Origin: Saccharicrinis carchari | Lineage (GTDB): Bacteria > Bacteroidota > Bacteroidia > Bacteroidales > Marinilabiliaceae | Reading direction: 5' to 3' | NCBI RefSeq assembly: GCF_900182605.1 | Contig: NZ_FXTB01000001.1 | Span: forward strand, 558,001-622,000 | Length of the DNA: 64,000 nt | Shown: positions 61,802-63,546 of the stretch, piece after piece | Layout of the letters: each line of letters opens with the position of its first letter | Numbering within the stretch: position 1 is the first letter of the stretch | Program-made: the position numbers and the translations under genes | The notes under the pieces: model-generated | Database searches by the model: none | What the model was told of the DNA's origin: nothing | What the model saw: the letters and a program-made list of their open reading frames with translations, nothing else

Positions 61802-62908
61802 ATGGAATATATTGTTTCAGCACGAAAATACCGACCCTCTACCTTTGTTTCGGTAGTGGGTCAACAACACATCACCACCACTTTAAAAAATGCTGTCAAA
61901 GGCAGTCAGTTGGCACATGCCTATTTGTTTTGCGGTCCGCGCGGCGTAGGTAAAACCACTTGTGCGCGTATCTTTGCCAAAACAATCAACTGCTCCAACA
62001 TTACGGATGACTTTGAAGCATGCAACCAATGCGAGTCGTGCAATTCATTTGCCGAAAACCGCTCGTACAATATTCATGAGCTGGATGGAGCCTCCAACAA
62101 CTCCGTTGAAGATATTCGAAGCCTCATTGATAAGGTGCGTGTTCCGCCGCAGATTGGCACATACAGTGTTTACATTATCGATGAGGTGCACATGTTATCG
62201 GCTTCGGCGTTTAACGCTTTTTTAAAAACACTGGAAGAGCCACCGAAGCATGCCATTTTTATTTTGGCCACTACTGAAAAGCACAAGATACTCCCTACCA
62301 TTTTGTCGCGTTGCCAAATTTACGATTTCAACCGTATCACAATTGAAGATGCGGTAGAACATCTGAAATATGTAGCCAAAAGCGAAAACATTGAAGTGGA
62401 GGAAGAAGGACTTTCTGTTATCGCCCAAAAGGCGGACGGTGCCATGCGCGACGCCCTTTCTATCTTCGATCAGATCGTAGCTTTCTCGGGTAAACGCATT
62501 ACCTACCAACAGATAATTGATAACCTGAATGTATTAGATTACGATTATTATTTTAATTTGGTAGATGCTTTTTTAGCAGAAGATACTACACAAAGCCTGC
62601 TTATATTCGATGAGATATTAAAAAGAGGTTTTGATGCCCATCATTTCATCTCCGGATTGAGTTCGCACCTGCGCGATTTGTTGGTTTGCAAGGATACAGC
62701 TACAGTACAGCTGATGGATGTAGGTGTTAAGGCAAAAGAAAAATATGCTTCGCAAGCACAAAAAAGCAGCATGGATTTTTTATTAGACGCGCTGCAAATA
62801 ACCAACGACTGCGACCTGCAATACCGCATGGCCAAAAACAAGCGATTACATGTTGAGTTTGCCCTGCTAAAGCTGGCGCGTGTATTGGACGAGCAAAGAA
62901 AAAAGTAG
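61802..62908 (+). CDS. dnaX: DNA polymerase III subunit gamma (frame-0 product of dnaX)
   Basis: 368 residues ending at UAG (62906-62908) directly after the slippery heptamer. The clamp-loader ATPase is complete: Walker A GPRGVGKT at 45-52, zinc ligands Cys64, Cys74, Cys77 and Cys80, Walker B IIDEVH at 125-130, sensor 1 ATTEKHKI, the SRC motif (LSRCQ) at 169-171, and the domain III collar to the end. It lacks the DnaB- and polymerase-binding tail, which is encoded in the -1 frame immediately downstream. The product therefore equals a gamma form, able to load clamps but not to couple polymerase and helicase. Confidence 0.92.
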   Translation: MEYIVSARKYRPSTFVSVVGQQHITTTLKNAVKGSQLAHAYLFCGPRGVGKTTCARIFAKTINCSNITDDFEACNQCESCNSFAENRSYNIHELDGASNNSVEDIRSLIDKVRVPPQIGTYSVYIIDEVHMLSASAFNAFLKTLEEPPKHAIFILATTEKHKILPTILSRCQIYDFNRITIEDAVEHLKYVAKSENIEVEEEGLSVIAQKADGAMRDALSIFDQIVAFSGKRITYQQIIDNLNVLDYDYYFNLVDAFLAEDTTQSLLIFDEILKRGFDAHHFISGLSSHLRDLLVCKDTATVQLMDVGVKAKEKYASQAQKSSMDFLLDALQITNDCDLQYRMAKNKRLHVEFALLKLARVLDEQRKK

Positions 62909-62978
62909 CCAAAAAGGCGAAGCAACAAAGCGGTTCCGGAGGGAGTGATAAAAAAGTAAGTTCAACCGGTGCTTCGCC
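62899..62978 (+). promoter_or_regulatory. Programmed -1 ribosomal frameshift signal in dnaX
   Basis: Slippery heptamer A AAA AAG at 62899-62905 in the correct zero-frame phase, followed at once by UAG. Ten bases later an eight-base stem begins, GGCGAAGC (62916-62923) with GCTTCGCC (62971-62978), enclosing a five-base stem CGGTT (62931-62935) with AACCG (62964-62968). The heptamer is the same as in E. coli dnaX. Confidence 0.75.
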
Positions 62979-63546
62979 AGCAGATCAAACCAGACCTGCT
63001 AATCCCGCAGCTAAAAGTAATATTAAAAAAAATGGCGGAGCCCCAAAGAAACCGTTAAAAACCATTTCGCTCAAGGCGGTTTTAAACGGAGGAGAAAATC
63101 TATTGTCAGATAAAAAAACATCGTATCCGGATAACAAACAAGATAAAGGTACTGCAATTGAGGTGGATGCCGAATGGAAAGATCCGGTAGATGAGCAAGA
63201 ACTAAAAAAAGCCTGGTTGCTTTATGCCAAAAAAGTGGAGAAAAAAAATCCACGTTTATCCAGCATCTTAAACAACCATCCGCCCCAGTTGCATTCGGGA
63301 ACCCTTGTGCATGTGCGGCTTAAAAACAAAACACAAGACAACGAGCTGCAAGAGCAAAAGTCAAGTATATTTCCGTTTTTACGGCGGGAGCTTAAAAATG
63401 CCGATTTAGAGCTGGAAACGCTGGTGGTTACAGACGGACAAAAAACAACAAGAGCATTTACAGCAAGCGAAAAAGCCAAGTTGATGGCCCAAAAAAACCC
63501 GGCTCTTCTGTTGCTTACAAAAAAATTTGATCTGGATATTGAATAA
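62905..63546 (+). CDS. dnaX: Tau-specific tail of dnaX, read by -1 frameshift
   Basis: 213 codons in the -1 frame relative to the first part, open from before the slip site to TAA at 63544-63546. Joined as 61802-62905 plus 62905-63546 it gives a 581-residue tau, a normal length. The junction reads EQRKK then VAKKAKQQSGSGG. The first 65 or so residues are a Lys/Ser/Pro/Gly-rich flexible linker (SPADQTRPANPAAKS). The rest is a compact domain (DEQELKKAWLLYAKKVEKKNPRLSSIL; LFRRELKNAD-type helices; KAKLMAQKNPALLLLTKKFDLDIE) like the C-terminal domain of Bacteroidota DnaX, which binds the polymerase. A separate gene starting at 63103 (TTG) is unlikely, because the linker upstream is open and protein-like. 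Confidence 0.8.
   Translation, partial: VAKKAKQQSGSGGSDKKVSSTGASPADQTRPANPAAKSNIKKNGGAPKKPLKTISLKAVLNGGENLLSDKKTSYPDNKQDKGTAIEVDAEWKDPVDEQELKKAWLLYAKKVEKKNPRLSSILNNHPPQLHSGTLVHVRLKNKTQDNELQEQKSSIFPFLRRELKNADLELETLVVTDGQKTTRAFTASEKAKLMAQKNPALLLLTKKFDLDIE

Follow-up and report, generated by a model that had tools for sequence, protein, structure and literature searches.

The described dnaX genes closest to the one analysed here are those in which the longer product, tau, and not the shorter one, gamma, depends on recoding. Antonov et al. (2013; PMC3711429) presented 17 two-ORF dnaX genes of this reversed order from 12 genera, nine of them with 10 A's, for which their account proposes transcriptional realignment, and stated that RefSeq then carried none of the 17 with a frameshift annotation. 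The reversed order is repeated by Atkins et al. (2016; PMC5009743), who mention an unpublished candidate from Chlorobium with possible stimulators like those of Escherichia coli, and Sharma et al. (2014; PMC4066793) state that a limited set of bacteria makes its longer product by the shift. In E. coli itself, the slipperiness of the dnaX site is attributed to the sole tRNA-Lys, which pairs weakly with AAG (PMC5009743, section 21). Our search of the literature on dnaX recoding in Bacteroidota and Chlorobi, which covered titles and the openings of abstracts, found nothing on the variant described below.

Here we analyse the dnaX gene contained in a 64,000-nt stretch of the genome of Saccharicrinis carchari (the window), for which a preliminary description had proposed that gamma is the default product and that tau is made by a −1 shift. 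The reversed order of products to which that description drew attention is supported by our comparison, but it is not new, as it was described in 2013 (PMC3711429). While the arrangement is known, a ribosomal variant of it nested in a family with A10 runs appears to be new, as far as the literature search reaches.

Results

The dnaX reading frames in the window

The dnaX gene starts at 61802 on the forward strand and its frame 0 (61802..62908, + strand) encodes a gamma-like product of 368 aa and 41.6 kDa, ending at a TAG codon (62906-62908, + strand). This product matches positions 3-366 of NF011531, the gamma/tau model, with an E value of 5.6e-218 and a score of 725.7 (curated cut-off, 685), a match that covers the N-terminal clamp-loader ATPase part, and TIGR02397 matches the N-terminal part with 447.9 bits (cut-off, 250). 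The TAG codon adjoins the heptamer A_AAA_AAG (62899..62905, + strand), made of six A's and a G, so that a frame-0 stop directly behind this sequence, as previously noted, is found at 62899-62908. The −1 frame is open across the slip site up to a TAA at 63544-63546, and the part of it that follows (62905..63546, + strand) would encode the linker and the C-terminal part of tau: its product matches positions 420-613 of the 614 of NF011531 (E 2.1e-22, 79.7 bits), a fragment match that lies under the cut-off for the whole protein, in agreement with the tau-like character earlier ascribed to this frame up to 63546. The same product gave no Pfam family at an E value below 0.1. Joined through a −1 shift, the two parts would form a tau of 581 aa and 65.0 kDa, compared to the 41.6 kDa of the short form.

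A gene organized in this way could also be split, giving gamma plus a C-terminal protein that has its own start and is never fused to it, since a TTG codon at 63103 would open a downstream ORF of 147 aa. However, this TTG, 66 codons past the slip, is the first ATG, GTG or TTG of the −1 frame in the window, and there is none in the overlap upstream; with no start near the slip, reinitiation could not supply the linker. Furthermore, across the nine members of the genus described below the place of the nearest in-frame start varies between codons 14 and 117 whereas the linker is open in the −1 frame in all of them, and the covarying stem found downstream of the heptamer would have no role in a split gene. 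All this makes a split gene very unlikely.

Conservation of the heptamer and the stop codon in the genus

Searching the genus of the window identified dnaX in all nine genomes, and in each of them an exact in-frame heptamer of the X_XXY_YYZ type, always A_AAA_AAG, is immediately followed by a stop codon (TAG in six species and TAA in three) and the C-terminus lies in the −1 frame. An alignment of close relatives had been suggested as a check by the preliminary description, and the heptamer, the stop and the stem are all kept in the nine species of this alignment. The predicted long product has 575-581 aa in all nine. The A run has six residues in eight members and seven in one (G001), short of the approximately nine or more A's of a Thermus-type site; in G001, the seven A's are found in GAA AAA AAG TAA and the gene is still interrupted right behind the same heptamer. 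Pairwise differences among the nine members at codon positions 1, 2 and 3 amount to 2732, 2026 and 4096 in the −1 part and to 1384, 497 and 6514 in the N-terminal part, a pattern in the −1 part that, judged from these substitutions, is that of a translated frame, although less sharp than that of the N-terminal part.

Because the two frames would join with a difference of one base in the A run, we considered that one base of the run might be missing, either through an error of sequencing or assembly or because the gene is decaying; a homopolymer undercall, with seven A's read as six, had in fact been raised for this locus. The interruption recurs in nine separate genomes, of which one consists of four contigs, and the substitution pattern of the −1 part is a coding one; these two observations rule out the undercall and leave to error or decay a probability that is practically nil.

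The tau part of the window contains two further runs of eight A's (63025-63032 and 63241-63248). At the first of them the close relatives L010 and L011 have seven A's, and at the second no run of seven or more A's occurs in any of the other eight.

A covarying stem downstream of the heptamer

The stem of eight base pairs that had been noticed ten bases past the heptamer (62916-62923 with 62971-62978) is present, can be extended to nine pairs by A62924-U62970 and shows covariation. Its 5' arm thus spans 62916..62924 and its 3' arm 62970..62978 (both + strand), and compensatory changes, with both bases replaced and the pair kept, occur in five of the nine pairs in at least one species each: four of the eight pairs of the outer helix and, as the fifth, the ninth pair, which was predicted by RNAalifold. 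Over the eight pairs and nine species, 93.1% of the cells of the outer helix are paired; of the unpaired ones (5 of 72), G005, G007 and G008 have a single cell each, and the remaining two fall in G001, in which a bulge would restore the pairing of the outer stem.

Inside this stem, a second helix can be formed by bases of 62931..62939 on the 5' side and of 62964..62969 on the 3' side (both + strand). The inner stem of five bases proposed previously, CGGUU (62931-62935) with AACCG (62964-62968), is possible, but a four-pair alternative, CCGG (62936-62939) with CCGG (62966-62969), fits the data equally well, and in the nine-species alignment no pair of the inner helix has changes on both sides, so that neither form has support from covariation.

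The 92 nt that start at the heptamer fold in the window with −23.3 kcal/mol (z −3.44; one of 200 shuffles as good). When the structure of 13 pairs was compared with shuffled alignments, which take no account of the kinship among the nine species, both the number of cells changed on both sides (nine; one of 500 shuffles as high) and the covariation score (0.308, a value reached by none of the 500 shuffles, which gave 0.195, and compared with no more than 0.107 after sliding of the partner) were exceptional, whereas the count of pairs with both sides changed (four; 109 of 500 as high) and the number of pair types (nine; 333 of 500 as high) were not above the shuffles. A covariance model of the element gave 73-105 bits in the nine genus members from which it was built and nothing above 19.4 bits in the 56 other loci of the family, the best of these matches being at the slip site of L021 (E 0.043). 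A search of Rfam returned two matches, with E values of 1.8 and 4.6, both under the gathering scores. Folding energies in the genus are only moderately unusual (mean z −1.82; four of nine below −2), compared to a mean z of −0.63 in 55 other rows of the family, all with at least 85 nt behind the run and including the duplicate L112; three of these rows are below −2, one of them, L167, at −4.51.

The spacer between the heptamer and the stem has 10 nt, or 9 nt in two species, G003 and G008, whose stem has one more A-U pair, while the structures that stimulate −1 frameshifting usually lie 5-9 nt from the heptamer. Upstream of the heptamer, we looked for a stimulator resembling a Shine-Dalgarno sequence, and found no pairing with the 16S tail conserved among the nine members, only G003 pairing well (−6.1 kcal/mol). 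This is as expected for the ribosomes of Bacteroidia, which according to PMC9976891 make no use of Shine-Dalgarno sequences.

Long A runs in the relatives of the genus

In the family, 65 of 71 genomes were matched and all 65 dnaX loci were read, 56 of them outside the genus. Interruption at exactly 10 A's was found in 52 of these 56 and at 11 A's in one; the rest comprised two continuous genes with 10 A's and one cut at the end of a contig. A stop codon directly after AAAAAAG, here at the end of the longer run, is present in 27 of the 56, suggesting that the heptamer and the stop probably predate the genus; on the sequences compared, the genus is set apart by its short run and its stem and not by the heptamer and the stop. 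A quick tree of the N-terminal parts, with 42 of 89 inner branches unresolved, places the genus as one clade (SH-aLRT 99) nested in the family (97).

The C-terminus could be placed in 180 of 191 Bacteroidota loci by means of a profile built from the −1 parts of the family, which makes the test partly circular for the family itself. Outside the genus, 50 of the 53 placed family loci (including L112, identical to the family member L047 over 1740 nt) have it in the −1 frame and three in frame 0. For the 118 loci from outside the family the figures are 78 in frame 0, 28 in −1 and 12 in +1, shares that should not be read as frequencies, as 80 loci were the best of a longer list and 25 were picked for a short open frame among the matches listed. 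Among the 180 placed loci, the only ones that combine a −1 C-terminus with a run of fewer than nine A's are the nine of the genus.

The 10-A interruption of the family relatives suggests slippage by RNA polymerase, selection against which is evident at runs of nine in a large share of genomes (PMC1088944), a length not reached by the runs of the genus. The same process, as in Thermus, could operate on the A6/A7 run of the genus, with the stem being incidental or acting on RNA polymerase: in the family relatives the A10 runs occupy the corresponding position and most C-termini follow in the −1 frame as well, and Antonov et al. argued that runs of 7-9 A's in Chlorobium relatives may also slip transcriptionally (PMC3711429, section 23). 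However, six A's are few for polymerase slippage, the covarying stem is found only where the run is short, and a hairpin located 3' of the run would not yet have been made while the polymerase sits on it. We consider transcriptional slippage in the genus unlikely, and a shift made by the ribosome the better explanation of its site.

Several other observations were made on these runs. Among Bacteroidota loci with 10-12 A's the tau part may lie in frame 0, −1 or +1, as though the register did not matter where the polymerase slips. In L027 an A10 run is followed by an in-frame TAA and the C-terminus has returned to frame 0, which is not the case in its genus mate L031, possibly through an indel or an assembly error. 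The contig of L076 ends in an adapter-like sequence, presumably a sequencing adapter, which probably makes the dnaX stop seen there an artefact. Finally, a single AAA-to-AGA change was considered as the route from A10 to A6 and dropped, as the genus and its kin do not have equal numbers of codons ahead of the stop.

An apparent +1 site in a second family

We also examined f2, another family of the same order, centred on G037: 28 of its 30 genomes were matched and 27 loci analysed, the partial L273 being left out. The dnaX gene is interrupted in 21 of the 27, without a long A run, and in 17 of these 21 the C-terminus is in the +1 frame; the other four have no profile match, and their +1 frame stays open at least as far as codon 618. 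A search for AGGCAA[TC]C near codons 350-400, a pattern set after the junctions had been seen, found the motif in all 21 interrupted loci (20 as AGGCAATC and one as AGGCAACC) and in none of the six uninterrupted ones. The junction in this family (loci L246-L272) lies near dnaX codon 364-376. In L099 and L153 dnaX is likewise interrupted at the motif.

The motif is preceded by GTC in 15 of the 21 loci, and CRGGAG follows TCR in 16; the positions 4-7 bases upstream are near random, and conservation runs for about seven bases downstream. In seven genomes chosen for having the longer pattern AGGCAATCRCRGGAG in dnaX, this pattern occurs exactly once per genome, each time beside dnaX, and it does not occur in the genome of the window. 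Of the arginine codons in the N-terminal parts of the f2 dnaX genes, AGG is the least used (24 of 410), and tRNA-Arg(CCU) is present in the one f2 genome examined for it. Counts of codon phase upstream of the motif, made on ungapped stretches, were set aside. With these features the motif looks like a site of programmed +1 recoding.

Discussion

We propose that in the genus of the window gamma results from conventional decoding of frame 0 and tau from a programmed −1 frameshift of the ribosome, at a signal that would have replaced the 10-A polymerase-slippage site of the family, and we assign to this reading a probability of about 0.84. The preliminary description had arrived at gamma by default and tau by a −1 shift from a single locus, and the presence of the heptamer, the stop and the −1 C-terminus in nine of nine members, together with the covarying stem, lends it comparative support. 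Ribosomes arriving at A_AAA_AAG would have their lysyl-tRNA re-pair one base back, with an efficiency that, as the shift itself, we infer from the architecture of the site; the weakness of UUU-AAG pairing would aid the slip, as would the stop codon next to the heptamer and the hairpin behind it, and the shifted ribosomes would go on through the linker and the C-terminal domain to yield tau. Making tau by recoding would be old in the family, once through polymerase slippage on ten A's, and the genus would have switched to ribosomal −1 frameshifting, keeping the heptamer and the stop and adding the hairpin. The exchange of one mechanism for the other is less sure than the frameshift itself, because the A10 relatives with AAAAAAG followed by a stop (27 of 56) could also slip ribosomally.

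The spacing between the heptamer and the stem is the main weakness of the frameshift reading. With AAG in the P site and the stop codon in the A site, we count 13 nt from the first base of AAG to the downstream stem; if AAA were in the P site, the distance would be 16 nt. For E. coli ribosomes, inhibition was seen with a stem at 11-12 nt and release with one at 13 nt (PMC7282821). Because the distance is 13 nt with AAG in the P site and 16 nt with AAA, slippage with the stop codon waiting in the A site would be likelier than a classical slip of two tRNAs.

Among the tRNAs named by ARAGORN in the genome of the window, those for lysine have only the UUU anticodon, with two clear genes; a third ARAGORN call, also UUU, is absent from the Infernal list. 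A second lysine tRNA deciding which device is used was considered and dropped, since the two genomes compared, that of the window and G344 of the +1 family, both have tRNA-Lys(UUU) only. In a tRNA cluster on contig 10 of G000 (113501-113928 and 114295-114371), Infernal gives five weak tRNA-like matches of 77 nt where ARAGORN calls none.

In a wider context, we think it rather probable that one order, probably Bacteroidales in the sense of GTDB, uses three interchangeable devices in the same gene: polymerase slippage on 10 A's, which would leave the tau part free to drift among the three frames, a −1 shift at A_AAA_AAG plus hairpin, and a +1 shift at AGGCAATC. Selection would then maintain the need for two DnaX products while the device is swapped. 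The standing of gamma has long been controversial (PMC5009743, section 21); if our reading is true, tau itself depends on recoding and the device has been exchanged with both products kept, which would be evidence that both forms matter. Moreover, polymerase slippage and ribosomal frameshifting could be compared naturally in one gene of one family, with ribosomes that do without Shine-Dalgarno pairing. Gene callers may report dnaX genes of this kind as broken or truncated.

Finally, the order of products in the genus, with gamma in frame 0 and tau after the shift, is the opposite of that of E. coli dnaX, in which frame 0 gives tau and the shift gamma, and the stem of E. coli lies closer to the heptamer. 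Otherwise the E. coli gene is similar in its A_AAA_AAG, its downstream stem and its sole tRNA-Lys(UUU) (PMC6787027), although it has an upstream Shine-Dalgarno-like stimulator (PMC6787027), of which no conserved counterpart is found in the genus. Thermus thermophilus dnaX is alike in making two products from one gene at an A run, but there the run has nine A's, RNA polymerase slips and tau is encoded in the template frame (PMC1088944). Chlorobium phaeobacteroides shares the reversed order and possible E. coli-like stimulators (PMC5009743, section 21), with seven A's (PMC3711429, section 23) and in another lineage. The two-ORF genes of Antonov et al. resemble the locus most in having gamma in frame 0 and the tau part in the −1 frame; nine of their 17 have 10 A's and were proposed to be realigned during transcription, whereas the genus combines an A6/A7 run with a covarying stem and probably shifts frame on the ribosome.
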